This document shows positions 8,644 through 20,900 of a stretch of 22,720 bases of DNA, piece after piece; within the stretch, counting starts at the first letter, position 1; every line of letters begins with the position of its first letter. The stretch lies in the IMG/VR virus record IMGVR_UViG_3300042522_000927, positions 1-22,720 of that record; one strand, 5' to 3'. The notes below the pieces were generated by a model. It saw nothing but the letters and a program-made list of their open reading frames with translations. It was not told the origin of the DNA and did not search any database. The position numbers were made by a program, and so were the translations under genes. The stretch is from a virus.

Positions 8644-9459
8644 TCAAAATTCGAGTCCTAGGGCTTTTGCTTGATCTTCAGTAAGCTGAACGGCTTTTTT
8701 TGGCTTAGGAGTATCAGCCTGTTCATCAACAACATCCACCACAGCAGGCTTAAGAGCCGCAACAGGAGCAGCAGCCGAAGCAAAGGTTCGCTCCTGACCC
8801 TGCGGTCTTGAAGCAGCAAATTGCGCTTTAATCTCCGAGTGGTCTGCGCCAAGTGGAAGCTCAACCAGATCCGATCCAGGAATGTGAGATTTGAGGGCGG
8901 CAGCGATGAGTCCTGCGCCCTTGTCCGGGATCCACGCATCAATGTCTCCAATGAGTTTTTTCTCCTCCTCTGTAGCCGAAGGTCGGTCAGAGAATTCAAG
9001 TGCGTTGAAATTGATTTTTGCTCCGTCAGCACCCGTCATAGGGTCCCGCTCGTTAAAACTCCGCGTCACAAACTTAGTTGCTGTGACAACGGAGGCACAG
9101 TTAATGCGGTTGTTATAAAGGGTTTGGAAGTAACTGATAAAGTTTTTCTGCGATGATTTACCGGAGATCATCGAAGTTGTTACGCAGCGAGGAGGAAGCA
9201 ACCTATGGTTAGGGCTAACTCCGATGTACGCAATTCGGAGGAATTCCTCCTGATTACGCATTCCAAGATTCCCGAAGTATGGAGTAAAACCTAGAAGGAT
9301 GAACTCAATCGGAATACCGTTATCATTACGATCAACAATTGCGCTGTCAGGATCAACGTCTGATTTCCACCTTCGAGCTTGGAGATCAATCCGTAGTGTA
9401 TGAGGAGGGACGTTGCACAGAATTTCGTCTTCGGAGAATTGGCCAGCAATGAACACCAT
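8644..9459 (-). CDS. Hypothetical protein with Ala/Pro linker and short C-terminal tail, 271 aa
   Basis: The first 185 residues look like a folded domain rich in beta strands and containing FILLGFTPYFGNLG and a Cys in PPRCVTTSMI. An Ala/Pro/Val-rich linker follows (about 218-250), then LTEDQAKALGLEF at the end. No catalytic motif is recognised. The arrangement of globular domain, flexible linker and short hydrophobic tail recalls ssDNA-binding proteins and their partners. The gene lies directly downstream of the OB-fold candidate, so it may take part in the same replication or recombination step; this is inference. A 12-base palindrome sits just before the ATG. Last gene before the terminator at 8569-8598. 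Confidence 0.65.
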   Translation of the reverse strand: MVFIAGQFSEDEILCNVPPHTLRIDLQARRWKSDVDPDSAIVDRNDNGIPIEFILLGFTPYFGNLGMRNQEEFLRIAYIGVSPNHRLLPPRCVTTSMISGKSSQKNFISYFQTLYNNRINCASVVTATKFVTRSFNERDPMTGADGAKINFNALEFSDRPSATEEEKKLIGDIDAWIPDKGAGLIAAALKSHIPGSDLVELPLGADHSEIKAQFAASRPQGQERTFASAAAPVAALKPAVVDVVDEQADTPKPKKAVQLTEDQAKALGLEF

Positions 9460-15982: not shown

Positions 15983-17533
15983 TTACCTGATACACTTCTG
16001 TATTGCGTCCATAGTATCCTCTGCGTTATAGAGATTAACAGAATACAGCTCATCACTGAACCTCTTACACACCTCTGGGATTGAGGAGTTAACGCATATC
16101 GTGTTCCATTGAATACCTGTCTGTTGCTTCAGGGTGTTCAGGCGTCGAATAAAGTTATCGTTCACATCGCTGTTCCCATCTGTGATCATGAGTACGTCTG
16201 CCTTGTCCCCGATCTTGGCGTGATCCAACGCGTGGGCGATTACGGCATTAAAGCTTGTACCGCCCCCCAGCACCCAGGTAGCCACGAAGTCCAGAAGCGA
16301 GCTGTTGTTCTTTCGCTCCGCTTTTAGCTCGACGCTACCTTCGATTCGAGTGTCGAACAAATGTATCTGGACTGTCCGGTTCTCTTTGAGTGCTTGCTCT
16401 GCAATAACGAAAGTAATTGCTTTGCTCCAGAGTTCGGGTTCTCCCCCCATTGAACCTGATACGTCTACGTACATAACAATCGGACCTTTACCTACATCTT
16501 TCCTGTGTGCTGTGTAATCTTTAGTTAACAAGGTTTTCTGAGAGTATTTCAGAGCGAACAGTGCGCGCCCCTCTGGGGTGTTAGCGAGAGCAACCTCAAC
16601 CGGGAATGCTTTTGTGACATCATCACCAAACTTAGCCCCGGTAATAGCTTCGTATTGATCTTGAATTTTCTTTGCTTTTTTGCGGTCGCTCCACAGGCGA
16701 CGCATCGCCCCCAGTTTTTTAGCAAGCTGACGGAGTTGTTTGTTGTAGCTAAGACGCTTTGCTAGTTCGCGTTTCTCCGCAATACCTCCTACATGAGATC
16801 CGAGACCAGCTTCACTGCCGTGGATAGAACCTATAGCATCATTTGTCTCATCGGATTGCTTTACCACAGTGTCAACAATTTTGTGTGATTGACTCTGAAG
16901 TTTATCGTGTGCTTCTTGGATTGCTTCTGTGATAGCTTGTCCTAAGGCTTTTCCTTCTTTCCTCGCCTTGTCGGCTGCCCGGTTGTCCCCCTTAGCCTGG
17001 GCTTCTCGAAACTGTTTTCTGAGTTCTTCTAATCGTTCTCCTGCGTTTGTCAAAAGCTGAACATCAAACTGCCCTTCCTGGATTGCTTCTTCGATTACTT
17101 TCGATAGCTCATTCAGAATGTTGACGGCATTGTTTCCTGCATTAAATTGATCCCCAACACTCCGCCGAATGAGCTCAGGCCAAGCAGCAGCCTGGCTGAG
17201 ATCGTTCATGATTGAATACCAGATACCGTTCTCAGGTTTGTATCCTTTGGGTGTTACTGTTGTGTCCCCGTCGCAGACTTTACGGAAGTAATCTTCGTAC
17301 GCATCTTCGGTCACAAGCCATTCGACATTATCCCCGTTATACAGACGCTCGAATACTTCCTTACCAAACCTAGACAATTGACGAATGTTATAAGTGTCGA
17401 TTAAATACGTAACAGAAGGGCGAACATCCCGAATAAAATCGGACCACAGAAAATCAGCCAGGGCAGAGCAAGCTAATGTCAGTGGTTCGTTATCGATTAT
17501 TCGAATAATCTCAGTGTGTTTTGTGAGGTTCAT
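15983..17533 (-). CDS. ViaA-like VWA-domain protein, 516 aa
   Basis: The C-terminal 170 residues form a von Willebrand factor A domain with a complete MIDAS: DVSGSMGG (D357, S359, S361), GGGTSFN (T426) and ITDGNSD (D452), binding a divalent metal. The N-terminal 345 residues are mainly helical, with a charged coiled-coil-like segment (about 150-220) and a basic region (265-290). Length and layout match ViaA, the partner of the AAA+ ATPase RavA in bacteria, and its gene lies directly downstream of a RavA-like gene. AAAGGA just before the ATG is one of the better ribosome sites in the block. A CobT/chelatase role is less likely because no chelatase large subunit is seen. Confidence 0.75.
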   Translation of the reverse strand: MNLTKHTEIIRIIDNEPLTLACSALADFLWSDFIRDVRPSVTYLIDTYNIRQLSRFGKEVFERLYNGDNVEWLVTEDAYEDYFRKVCDGDTTVTPKGYKPENGIWYSIMNDLSQAAAWPELIRRSVGDQFNAGNNAVNILNELSKVIEEAIQEGQFDVQLLTNAGERLEELRKQFREAQAKGDNRAADKARKEGKALGQAITEAIQEAHDKLQSQSHKIVDTVVKQSDETNDAIGSIHGSEAGLGSHVGGIAEKRELAKRLSYNKQLRQLAKKLGAMRRLWSDRKKAKKIQDQYEAITGAKFGDDVTKAFPVEVALANTPEGRALFALKYSQKTLLTKDYTAHRKDVGKGPIVMYVDVSGSMGGEPELWSKAITFVIAEQALKENRTVQIHLFDTRIEGSVELKAERKNNSSLLDFVATWVLGGGTSFNAVIAHALDHAKIGDKADVLMITDGNSDVNDNFIRRLNTLKQQTGIQWNTICVNSSIPEVCKRFSDELYSVNLYNAEDTMDAIQKCIR

Positions 17534-17568
17534 GTGTTTCCTTTGAGTGTCAGATAAAGGTAAATCTC

Positions 17569-18756
17569 TTACTTACTAATATCGCTAATGGCTCGAGTAA
17601 GTGTATTGCAGTTGTTCTGCAAATTCTGCTGCAGTTTAACACCAGCAGCTCTCGTGGTAACAGACATCCTGAATCTAGTCCCATCTAGAATCTCGTTTAC
17701 TTTATCGCGAACTGTGCTCATATCCTTGTAGTATTTGCGTAGGAGAATTACAAAGTCGTTTAGGTCACCTAGCCCCTTGGCTTGATACCTGTGTGAGTAC
17801 GTAGTGTACTCTGACATGATCCCTGCAGCTGCTCGTTTTGCGTCGTTAAACACACGATCCGCTGTGGGGATTTCTTGCTCTAGCACTTCATGAATAACTT
17901 CTTGATCTTCTCTTGTTTGGTAAACAATATGCACAAGGCTGTTGTGCATATGCTCTGCGTACAGTTCATCGTCACCTTGAACGACAGCCCATGCCTTAAG
18001 GAACTTAAGGATTTGTACGCGACGACGATCACTGATTACGATGCTTCGATTAGCCAGCATCTCCCAGACACTACTGAAACGATCAAGAAATTCATCTGAT
18101 ACTTTTATATCTGCAGCTGCTTCCTGCAACTCTTGTAGCTCCTTCAGTGTCAGGTGCTCACCGACATCCGGTCGTGAACTAATACCCAGTGCCCACTCGT
18201 CCAACCGACGCTTAGAAACAGGCTTACGCAGAAGATCCACCGTGGGACGGAAAAGGAATCTGTCGGCAAATGCTTGAAGAGATTCCTCATCCGGCCAGCT
18301 ATTTGTTGCGGCAACTATGGATTGGATCGGTGTGTCGAGCAGCTCTTTGCCGTTGTTAAATGTTCGTTCGTTAAGCAGGGTGAGAAGAGAGTTAAGGATC
18401 GCAGAGCTTCCACGAAATAGCTCATCAAGAAAACCGATGTGAGCACTCGGAAGATATCCAGTTACATCACGCGTGTACTCATCGTTGAGTAGCTTTGTTA
18501 CAGCCACTGGGCCAAAAACTTCAGAAGGATCTGTTGTTGGGGTGAGCAAGTAGCCGAAGTAATTAGCCCCCTTGATTCCTTTACAGATGTTCCTCACAAG
18601 ATCTGATTTCCCTGTGCCGGGGACACCAAGAAGGAAAGCGTTTTGTTTGCTCAGCAAGGTTGCAAGCAAACCGTCAATTACGTGCTCGCGTTCGAGCGTG
18701 GCATTGTTGAGAGCACCACGAAAGCTTTGCAGTTTAGTAAAGAGAGTGTCGTTCAT
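17569..18756 (-). CDS. RavA/MoxR-type AAA+ ATPase, 395 aa
   Basis: MoxR-family AAA+ proteins are chaperone-like machines that usually work with a VWA partner. Walker A is GVPGTGKS (44-51) and Walker B is IGFLDE (D111, E112). DPSEVFGPVAVTKLLNDEY and TSGYLP-like VTGYLPSAHIGF match RavA closely. LNSLLTLLNERTFNNG is the typical helix-sensor stretch, VAATN (148-152) is sensor 1, and SDRRR near 242-246 is the sensor 2 region. The C-terminal 150 residues are helical. The gene is shorter than E. coli RavA (about 500 aa), mostly at the C-terminus. Thirty-five bases separate it from the VWA gene; its own leader has two palindromes. No Shine-Dalgarno sequence is visible. Confidence 0.85.
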   Translation of the reverse strand: MNDTLFTKLQSFRGALNNATLEREHVIDGLLATLLSKQNAFLLGVPGTGKSDLVRNICKGIKGANYFGYLLTPTTDPSEVFGPVAVTKLLNDEYTRDVTGYLPSAHIGFLDELFRGSSAILNSLLTLLNERTFNNGKELLDTPIQSIVAATNSWPDEESLQAFADRFLFRPTVDLLRKPVSKRRLDEWALGISSRPDVGEHLTLKELQELQEAAADIKVSDEFLDRFSSVWEMLANRSIVISDRRRVQILKFLKAWAVVQGDDELYAEHMHNSLVHIVYQTREDQEVIHEVLEQEIPTADRVFNDAKRAAAGIMSEYTTYSHRYQAKGLGDLNDFVILLRKYYKDMSTVRDKVNEILDGTRFRMSVTTRAAGVKLQQNLQNNCNTLTRAISDISK

Positions 18757-18784
18757 TTTGAGTAAGCTTGAATGATTTGTTGAC

Positions 18785-18815
18785 CGTTTACGTTAAACGT
18801 GATCTCAGTTAACTG
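18785..18815 (-). promoter_or_regulatory. Paired palindromes in the leader of the RavA-like gene
   Basis: The 85-base gap before the ATPase gene holds CGTTTA-CGT-TAAACG (18785-18799) and the perfect 10-base palindrome CAGTTAACTG (18806-18815). Both are symmetric and AT-centred like operator sites. Together they suggest separate control of the ATPase/VWA pair within the longer block. Confidence 0.4.
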
Positions 18816-18841
18816 GAACCTAAAGTAATTTTCGTGTCATC

Positions 18842-19057
18842 TTAATCTTCCAGGACAAAAGGAACCGGACGTGGGAAAGGGACGTGTACTGCTCCAACCC
18901 AACAAGAGTTGCTCAGTACTCCACTAACTCCTGCCAGACGTTTACACGCTTGAGTAAAGTCAACAAAGGTTACAGCTTTCATTACATCATCTGTGTACTT
19001 TTCGATGTCATACAAGTACCCTTTGTCAGACTCAATAACATGTAGGACTCTATTCAT
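18842..19057 (-). CDS. Small protein between the 407-aa and ATPase genes, 71 aa
   Basis: The ATG overlaps the stop of the 407-aa gene (TGATG), so translation is probably coupled. The product has a charged N-terminal helix (VIESDKGYLYDIEKYTDDVM), a central helix (FVDFTQACKRLAGVSG) and a Pro-rich end (VHVPFPRPVPFVLED). No family is recognised. Its conserved-looking position inside the AAA+/VWA module suggests an accessory role, by position only. Confidence 0.55.
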   Translation of the reverse strand: MNRVLHVIESDKGYLYDIEKYTDDVMKAVTFVDFTQACKRLAGVSGVLSNSCWVGAVHVPFPRPVPFVLED

Positions 19058-20280
19058 CAGAAATCCAACTCCGTTTTAGATGTTGTAGCCTCCACGTCGG
19101 GCTCTACATTCTTGTCCACAACAGCGGAGATTAGATCTTCAAGGTTCTCACCAGCCGCACCAATGAGCTCCTTACGTTGGTTGATTAGTTTGTTCAGGTG
19201 CTTAGAACGCTGAGCGTAAACATTGAGTTCGAGGTTGGCATCTTTGATAAGGAGGTTTAAAGCACCTGCGTTTTCTGCGCCTTTAATTCGATCACACAGA
19301 GTCTTATAAGTGTTAGACAAAGACAGAGACTGTTTCAATACGTCTAAACCTTTTGAGGTTTCACGTTGCTGGCAGATGTTTTCCAGCTCTTCGCGAATCT
19401 CATCCTGAACTTTGTAGAAATCTTCCGTCCCTTGATTCCGCGTGGCCCTGTCGTTGGATTGAATATCGTGTCCAGCTTGCAGTAACTTTTCAGAGAGTTC
19501 TGCGAGATTATCGAAACCAGGCACACTGTCACTGATCAATTTAAGTTTCTGAGCAGTGATCTGCCAGCTCCCTCGTTTCTTGTCTCCGCCTGTTTGTTGT
19601 CGGCCTACTTTAGTAACGTTCCGCGCATCCAAATCGTCAAGCAGTTCTGCACTAATGACTAGTGCTCGGTCTGCAGCATTGTTACGTGCTGCCGCCAAAA
19701 CTTGTTGAGTATTGATTTGGTTTTCGTAAGCGATAAGAGAATCTAGATCACCCTCGATCGGTTTTGTTACTCTCTCCATTGATGTCGGCAGAGGGCCAAG
19801 CACCGAAACTCGAATTGGTGTTTTGTACTCCTCTTTCGTAGGAAAGAATTTCATGTATGCGTCGAAGGCCAGTTTAAATTCATCTGTGTCACTAAACAAA
19901 GGACGCAGAATACCTTCAGCTGTTTGTTGCCACGCTTCATACTCCGACTCCCACAGATCTTTAAGTTGATCGTTTGCTTCAGCTGCTGCAGTCCGAATCT
20001 CTTTAATCAGGTCGTTAGCCAGATAAAAGTAGGAAGAAGTGACAAAGTGAGCGTCACCAAAATGAATGCAATAGCCATCATACAATTCGCGCTGTAGCAT
20101 ACGAAGCGAATCAAGCTTTGCTTTAAGTGCATTTGAGAGATTAGGACGCAGACTGACTGTGTTATTGCGCTGAAGTGTTTCGATAACAGACGCAGGCAGT
20201 TTCAAATCATCAAACTTGATTTGAACGCTCTGCCTAACGTCAGCTGAGATCGAGCAGGAGAGCAGATAATGAGAAGTCAT
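19057..20280 (-). CDS. 407-aa partner of the AAA+/VWA module (DUF3150-like?)
   Basis: Largely helical. The first 150 residues have the order LKLPASVIETL, LKAKLDSLRMLQREL, YDGYCIHFGDAHFV and aromatic-rich helices up to YMKFFPTKEEY. The rest (about 250-390) is highly charged and coiled-coil-like. It recalls DUF3150 proteins, which I remember as encoded beside MoxR ATPase and VWA genes on plasmids and integrative elements; that match is from memory and must be tested. The ATG at 20280 lies just after a strong terminator, and the downstream gene is coupled, so this gene probably begins the module. Its substrate or partner is unknown; the long helices suit a scaffold. Confidence 0.5.
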   Translation of the reverse strand: MTSHYLLSCSISADVRQSVQIKFDDLKLPASVIETLQRNNTVSLRPNLSNALKAKLDSLRMLQRELYDGYCIHFGDAHFVTSSYFYLANDLIKEIRTAAAEANDQLKDLWESEYEAWQQTAEGILRPLFSDTDEFKLAFDAYMKFFPTKEEYKTPIRVSVLGPLPTSMERVTKPIEGDLDSLIAYENQINTQQVLAAARNNAADRALVISAELLDDLDARNVTKVGRQQTGGDKKRGSWQITAQKLKLISDSVPGFDNLAELSEKLLQAGHDIQSNDRATRNQGTEDFYKVQDEIREELENICQQRETSKGLDVLKQSLSLSNTYKTLCDRIKGAENAGALNLLIKDANLELNVYAQRSKHLNKLINQRKELIGAAGENLEDLISAVVDKNVEPDVEATTSKTELDF

Positions 20281-20316
20281 CTTGATTAGTTAAAGAGAAA
20301 GTACAGGTTTCCCTGA

Positions 20317-20343
20317 GAAAAATACCCCTCCAACAGGAGGGGT
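20317..20343 (-). terminator. Strong intrinsic terminator (minus strand)
   Basis: ACCCCTCC and GGAGGGGT form a perfect 8-bp stem with a 4-base loop, followed on the minus strand by ATTTTTC. It ends the transcript of the coiled-coil gene and its structured 3' region, only about 40 bases before the 407-aa gene starts. Confidence 0.8.
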
Positions 20344-20474
20344 GCAGCACTCACGCGGAGACCCGAGCAAGGTTACCATGTAAAGCATGGAATGGCAAGA
20401 CCTTAACGGTAATCTCAGAGTTTAGCTGTGCGTCACGATACAATCGTATCGTTCACGGTGAGTCTCGTATGAGA
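20344..20474 (-). ncRNA. Structured 3' region, candidate small RNA
   Basis: Between the stop of the coiled-coil gene and the terminator lie 131 non-coding bases with successive stem-loops. AGTCTC-GAGACT (20461-20476) touches the stop codon, ACGATAC-GTATCGT (20435-20452) has a 4-base loop, and a nested pair is formed by AAGGT/ACCTT (20369-20373 with 20400-20404) enclosing CCATG/CATGG (20376-20380 with 20386-20390). With the terminator hairpin this makes a compact folded RNA of about 150 nt. It shows no tRNA features. It could be a small RNA released from the 3' end, or protect the mRNA. Confidence 0.45.
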
Positions 20475-20900
20475 CTATTTGTGCAGACGGGTGAAAGCAA
20501 GCACAATCTTATCTGTAGTCTGGTCGCACTCTCCTGCCAGAAGCAGCTCTTCAGTAGCGTGCTTAAGCTTTGCTTTCGCTAGCTTGAGCTTCTTCTCGAG
20601 CTGCTCAACGTCGCCCGCAAGTTTCTCAAGCTTTACATGCAGCGTGGGCTTACGAGAGATTCGAACAACGATATTTGTGTTGTACTGAGGGAACTTGAAC
20701 CTGCTTGCCTCACCTGAAAAGATAGACAAATCCAAACCCTGTGATTCAGCGAGTGTTACATCGCGCAGTAGATTGTCTTTCGCGGAGTCATACACAACTC
20801 CGAAAGATTGATTCAGTTCACTTAGTGCAGTATCGCACTCATCGTAAGCCTCAGCCGCCGTGGCCCCCAGGGAGACCAGCTCTGTTGTTTTGATACGCAT
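20475..20900 (-). CDS. Coiled-coil protein, 141 aa
   Basis: The C-terminal half is a long charged heptad-like helix (LEKLAGDVEQLEKKLKLAKA and KLKHATEELL). The N-terminal half is a mixed helical domain (TAAEAYDECDTALSELNQS) followed by a short beta-rich segment (YNTNIVVRISRKPTLHVKLE). No family is recognised. It starts with ATG at 20900 and is followed by the structured RNA and terminator. Near position 20959-20964 a TATGAT hexamer on the minus strand could be a -10 box, with no good -35. Confidence 0.6.
   Translation of the reverse strand: MRIKTTELVSLGATAAEAYDECDTALSELNQSFGVVYDSAKDNLLRDVTLAESQGLDLSIFSGEASRFKFPQYNTNIVVRISRKPTLHVKLEKLAGDVEQLEKKLKLAKAKLKHATEELLLAGECDQTTDKIVLAFTRLHK

Follow-up and report, generated by a model that had tools for sequence, protein, structure and literature searches.

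The stretch of DNA analysed here, hereafter the window, comprises positions 1 to 22,720 (22.7 kb) of the virus record IMGVR_UViG_3300042522_000927 in IMG/VR. Four genes on its minus strand are the subject of this study. The first encodes a mostly helical protein of 407 aa (19057..20280), referred to as H407, which ends in the residues DF. It is followed by a gene for a protein of 71 aa (18842..19057), a gene for a MoxR-type AAA+ ATPase of 395 aa with a RavA-related AAA core (17569..18756) and a gene for a VWA protein of 516 aa (15983..17533), which resembles the co-chaperone ViaA; its MIDAS is complete and its N-terminal region is helical. An earlier note, made from the sequence alone, had described these four open reading frames as a possible dedicated system for remodelling a host or virion complex, and all of them were found on the minus strand exactly where it had placed them. 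The coupling that it had proposed for the first two genes was confirmed as well: they share one base (TGATG), and this overlap recurs in nearly all relatives which have the 71-aa gene at this place.

The ATPase shows its best NCBIfam match to RavA (136 bits, E 1.8e-39, residues 7-265), and a sequence search of the PDB also returned RavA (E 6e-40), in the AAA core only. The match ends at position 272 of the 498 positions of the RavA model and its 136 bits compare with an equivalog cut-off of 681. As it stops at residue 265 of the protein, no LARA region is matched. In Pfam, the protein matches the bpMoxR family (PF20030) with E 1e-54. Walker A (GVPGTGKS), Walker B (DE) and sensor-1 (TN) are invariant in an alignment of 27 MoxR proteins, which agrees with the previous description of a MoxR/RavA-type ATPase with intact Walker motifs. 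For the VWA protein, the best NCBIfam match is ViaA (58.5 bits, E 6.7e-16), which covers the VWA region only and lies far below the equivalog cut-off. The MIDAS residues (DxSxS, GGGT, TDG) are invariant in 39 aligned VWA proteins, so that the MIDAS is complete, as had been claimed. All Pfam models that match the 516-aa protein above the cut-offs are of the VWA type, among them the CoxE-like VWA model. For the predicted structure of the VWA protein, the best fit is the MIDAS domain of Rea1 in its Ytm1-bound form (Z 15.4, rmsd 3.5, 198 aligned residues), with many other VWA domains tied within 1 Z.

A cobalt or magnesium chelatase set had been named as the finding that would speak against a RavA-ViaA-like pair. 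None of the chelatase models (CobS/CobT, ChlI/ChlD) is listed for the ATPase or the VWA protein in NCBIfam at E up to 0.1; RavA and ViaA are returned instead, and the chelatase reading was therefore rejected. By their sequences, the two proteins are of the RavA/ViaA type but are not RavA/ViaA orthologues, because LARA is unmatched and neither score comes near its equivalog cut-off. Compared with RavA-ViaA of E. coli, whose AAA core and VWA partner are homologous to the window proteins, the set in the window has a shorter ATPase and an extra third gene.

For the distribution of these genes, viral contigs were searched with the window MoxR and the window H407 as queries, which gave about 60 contigs with the same gene order, usually with polA downstream. 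A second search with a mixed phage-plasmid MoxR alignment led to 80 viral loci that were kept, and 75 of these carry H407, MoxR and VWA together. Among the five loci without the full trio, one lies on a contig of 45.8 kb (G016; locus L020), in which MoxR and VWA are present and H407 is found nowhere, and the others appear to be cut by contig ends. Upstream of MoxR, the G016 contig contains several copies of a gene for a small 'HPITPPPEL' protein. The 71-aa protein shows 32-62% identity in close relatives. Its gene is not located between H407 and MoxR in the loci L063, L064, L075 and L093-L096, and its profile found no match in plasmids, in Nostoc and in many divergent phages. The proposal of a four-gene system was therefore given up, since many relatives lack the 71-aa gene, and of the expectation that the genes stay together in other phages only the linkage of H407, MoxR and VWA was retained. 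The conserved unit is a set of three genes in the order H407 - MoxR - VWA, and the 71-aa gene is an accessory outside this core. In a subset of the phages (loci L024, L025, L027, L029-L035, L038, L041, L042 and L056), MoxR is preceded by a further gene for about 200-225 aa, which separates it from the 71-aa gene (or from H407).

The region ahead of H407 was compared between the relatives in the same way. A gene for a coiled-coil protein of 141 aa (20475..20900, minus strand) precedes H407 in the window and adjoins it in nearly all loci that reach that far. The protein shows 46-78% identity in relatives, and it is possibly a further partner of the trio. Between the two genes, a terminator-like hairpin with a T-tract (20324..20343, minus strand) is found, which in most close relatives is located 30-45 nt before the H407 start codon; the stems have many different sequences and the distance is nearly constant. 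The TAACTAA element TTAACTAA (20286..20293, minus strand) stands right after this hairpin and a few bases 5' of the H407 start codon. TAACTA is invariant in 19 aligned leaders and TAACTAA is present just 5' of the ATG in most relatives. No ribosome site and no known promoter box could be recognised in the element. As a general signal for gene starts it was rejected, as its counts exceed those expected by chance by a factor of about 2.5 at most and only a small number of its sites are located shortly before an ATG. In divergent relatives, the 141-aa gene abuts H407, and both the hairpin and TAACTAA are absent there. The terminator thought to set the unit off thus exists and is kept in most close relatives but is missing in the divergent ones. 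An operator-like leader had also been suggested. The palindrome in question is present in the window (20435..20452, minus strand) but is not conserved among relatives and was dismissed as a conserved operator; it is TAACTAA that is conserved instead.

H407 itself has no meaningful match in Pfam, PHROG, NCBIfam, the PDB or the phage collection. Its family was aligned with 39 relatives of 46-81% identity (40 sequences). An AlphaFold model with a mean pLDDT of 72 gave a DUF3150 protein as the top Foldseek match (E 2.1e-6, probability 1.00, TM 0.39/0.52). With a limit of E 10, PF11348 (DUF3150) does not appear among the 25 families listed for the 40 aligned H407 sequences, and in two phage genomes which carry H407 (G001 and G008) its profile gave nothing with E up to 1. 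Because the Pfam profile gave no match, we do not claim that H407 belongs to DUF3150. A relationship to DUF6744 was considered too and discarded, as the profile comparison shows no similarity. Against solved structures, both sequence and fold returned only common helical arrangements.

The most constant feature of H407 is its C-terminus. A terminal phenylalanine is found in 62 of 62 distinct tails of the family (57 DF, 5 GF), compared with 26 of 513 open reading frames in four of the genomes studied, and the acidity of the tails is variable. The tails end in DF in phages and in GF in plasmids, hence a single ligand residue is not fixed. Similar ends occur in single-strand DNA-binding proteins: the SSB of Synechococcus phage S-EIV1 ends in EPF and that of a Pseudanabaena plasmid in DDF. 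The tail of H407 may be a docking peptide. A protein of 271 aa encoded at 8644-9459 (minus strand) and conserved in the clade also has an SSB-like tip, with LEF, LDF or IDF at its end in most members checked; it has no match in PHROG.

It could be argued that the trio belongs to the auxiliary genes and acts as a chaperone for host metabolism or metalloproteins, similar to CbbQ-CbbO, CoxD-CoxE or the cobalt chelatase pairs. The match of the window VWA protein to the CoxE-like model fits to this, and the MoxR pair orf66/orf63 of Bacillus phage 0305phi8-36, in which MoxR and a partner gene lie close together according to the published description on which this comparison is based, was described as a metalloprotein chaperonin (PMC2147016). 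However, NCBIfam returns RavA and ViaA and not the chelatase or Rubisco-activase models, the trio is nearly constant across the whole phage clade with no metabolic genes adjoining it, and by sequence H407 cannot be assigned to any known family or solved structure. This role therefore seems very unlikely.

The window contains genes for polA, primase, exonuclease and ThyX. Nucleotide searches against phages and a search of Rfam gave no match for it. Longer relatives of 78-87 kb (G001, G003, G007 and G008) have the window genes in common. In G007, the terminase shows about 51% identity to the terminase of S-EIV1, and 68% identity was found for another protein, which belongs to the structural block. 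The phage of the window is thus a distant relative of S-EIV1, and judging from these similarities its host is likely a cyanobacterium. The earlier assignment to a cyanophage is in line with this, as the longer relatives carry S-EIV1-like genes. In the clade of uncultured viruses to which the window phage belongs, the trio forms one block with primase, exonuclease and polA and shares their strand, whereas terminase and portal are encoded on the opposite one. Across 50-79 shared genes, the conservation of MoxR is similar to that of polA and primase.

This location bears on the question of whether the trio is a chaperone for virion or tail assembly, which is the role proposed for other viral sets. 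The pair p618 (MoxR) and p892 (VWA) of Acidianus two-tailed virus (ATV), the one viral MoxR-VWA pair which has been studied experimentally, was assigned to tail development (PMC4124505), and for the MoxR-vWA set of group 2.2 jumbo phages, with the vWA fused to a peptidase, a role in virion assembly was proposed (PMC7824862). Like the window, these viruses encode a MoxR plus a VWA protein; an H407-type third gene is not reported in the available parts of these sources, and the ATV-type MoxR shows 28% identity to the window MoxR over 59% of the query. Yet the trio is clustered and co-oriented with the replication genes away from the structural block. Moreover, S-EIV1 has no match to H407, MoxR or VWA at E 0.01, although it shares the terminase and portal-type genes. 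The same trio is also found on conjugative plasmids, which build no virion. An assembly chaperone appears unlikely for these reasons, and the remodelling of a virion complex, as suggested before, is not favoured; the occurrence on plasmids makes it improbable as the main role.

In the plasmid collection, the closest MoxR proteins were found on Acaryochloris plasmids (43%), followed by those of Chroococcidiopsis (about 40%). The intact sets of both genera contain a gene for 442-469 aa, MoxR and VWA in the same order as in the phages. Comparison of the H407 profile with the plasmid gene upstream of MoxR by hhalign gave E values of 1.1e-11 and 8.9e-13 over about 350 residues. The VWA proteins are similar over nearly their full length (E 7.8e-33 for the window protein against that of an Acaryochloris plasmid). 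All three proteins encoded on pREC1 and pREC4 of Acaryochloris and on pCHRO.01 of Chroococcidiopsis are thus homologous to those of the window and the third protein also ends in phenylalanine, whereas it has a longer N-terminus and a GF instead of a DF tail. The plasmid genes are annotated as hypothetical protein, MoxR family or AAA family ATPase and VWA domain-containing protein. No obvious replication genes are located beside the Acaryochloris and Chroococcidiopsis modules. An alignment of H407 with its plasmid homologues contained no segment of sufficient conservation for a scan. No relatives came up when genomes were scanned with the phage-only MoxR alignment, whereas the mixed phage-plasmid alignment did find them. 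The trio was identified in two Nostoc genomes. Among 386 genomes from the phylum to which the Nostoc genome belongs, the H407 family was found in this genome alone, so that the trio belongs mainly to mobile DNA.

In a MoxR tree, the H407-linked proteins fall on one side of a branch with a support of 88/81 (0 of 500 shuffles as low), which is moderate support for a single origin; long branches meet here. Other mobile elements carry comparable sets. In the DUF6744-MoxR-VWA sets of Bacillota and Pseudanabaena plasmids and of the Moorella phage MTATph1, a gene for a third protein likewise precedes a RavA-type MoxR and a VWA gene, again on mobile DNA, but DUF6744 shows no detectable similarity to H407 and the MoxR proteins linked to it are found elsewhere in the tree. 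Some of these sets lie near dnaN, primase-type or SSB genes. MoxR-VWA sets in such a neighbourhood were observed on Alicyclobacillus and Pseudanabaena plasmids and in Aphanizomenon phage CL131. In the latter, MoxR and a partner gene (gp147/gp146) are close together as in the window and are followed by dnaN, but gp148, the protein encoded upstream, contains an LPD29 domain and is not similar to H407.

Ternary systems of MoxR, vWA and a third protein have been published from multicellular bacteria as conflict systems (PMC7159879). By analogy to this layout, the trio could be a device for conflict or counter-defence, with which host defences or targets of the takeover are disarmed or remodelled; phages and plasmids face the same host defences. 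We consider this rather unlikely. Effector, peptidase and propeller domains were not found by Pfam in any of the three proteins, PADLOC gave weak matches only (best E about 1e-4), and MoxR is conserved like polA, in contrast to the fast evolution expected of counter-defence genes. For the bpMoxR system with a beta-propeller, the PF20030-type MoxR is present in the window, but a propeller fused to the VWA protein was not found by Pfam above the cut-offs.

We favour a function of the trio in relation to DNA. H407, MoxR and VWA may form a three-subunit AAA+/MIDAS remodeller of mobile DNA that acts on replication or recombination complexes, a reading to which we assign a probability of about 0.5 and in which both the complex and its target are inferred. 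The arguments for a DNA-related target over virion assembly are the position in the replication block, the polA-like conservation of MoxR, the related sets near dnaN, primase-type or SSB genes and the conjugative plasmids without a virion. The trio would thus probably be used to copy or maintain mobile DNA and not to build virus particles. Neighbouring genes, however, are a weak indication of a target. The plasmid modules of Acaryochloris and Chroococcidiopsis, the ATV pair with its assignment to tail development and the G016 contig without H407 speak against this reading. In such a machine, MoxR would be the ATP-driven ring, the VWA protein would grip its partner via the metal site of the MIDAS, and H407 would be the adaptor that carries the machine to its target, possibly via the tail with its invariant phenylalanine. 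This tail is similar to the tips found in single-strand DNA-binding proteins. As a target, a complex for replication or recombination in the phage or plasmid would be most likely, and the machine could take it apart or reload it. More tentatively, H407 might found a new adaptor family whose tail docks MoxR-VWA on replication proteins, either by SSB mimicry or as a MIDAS ligand, and the trio might be a replisome remodeller common to cyanophages and cyanobacterial conjugative plasmids; this is conceivable but doubtful at present.

Viral MoxR-VWA pairs and ternary MoxR-vWA conflict systems are thus already known, and the pairs have so far been read as chaperones for virion assembly or metalloproteins. 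A trio with its own third protein, present in a widespread lineage of cyanophages and on conjugative plasmids without a virion, argues for a different, DNA-related job. No description of the H407 family or of the phage-plasmid trio was found in the literature searched, which leaves out most subscription journals, and no paper on DUF3150 or DUF6744 was found in this literature. H407-MoxR-VWA is a defined set of three proteins which is open to expression and testing.

Several copies of the genes deviate from the common arrangement. In the Chroococcidiopsis plasmids L192, L199 and L200, MoxR and VWA are separated by a gene for a HigA-type antitoxin on the opposite strand, and in two of the three a RelE/ParE toxin gene is annotated there as well. 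Acaryochloris 'Moss Beach' and Chroococcidiopsis pB (together L197, L198 and L200) contain split or cut H407-type genes, one of them without a following MoxR and VWA. The VWA gene of L290 / L034 consists of two overlapping frames, probably because of a sequencing frameshift or because the copy is broken.
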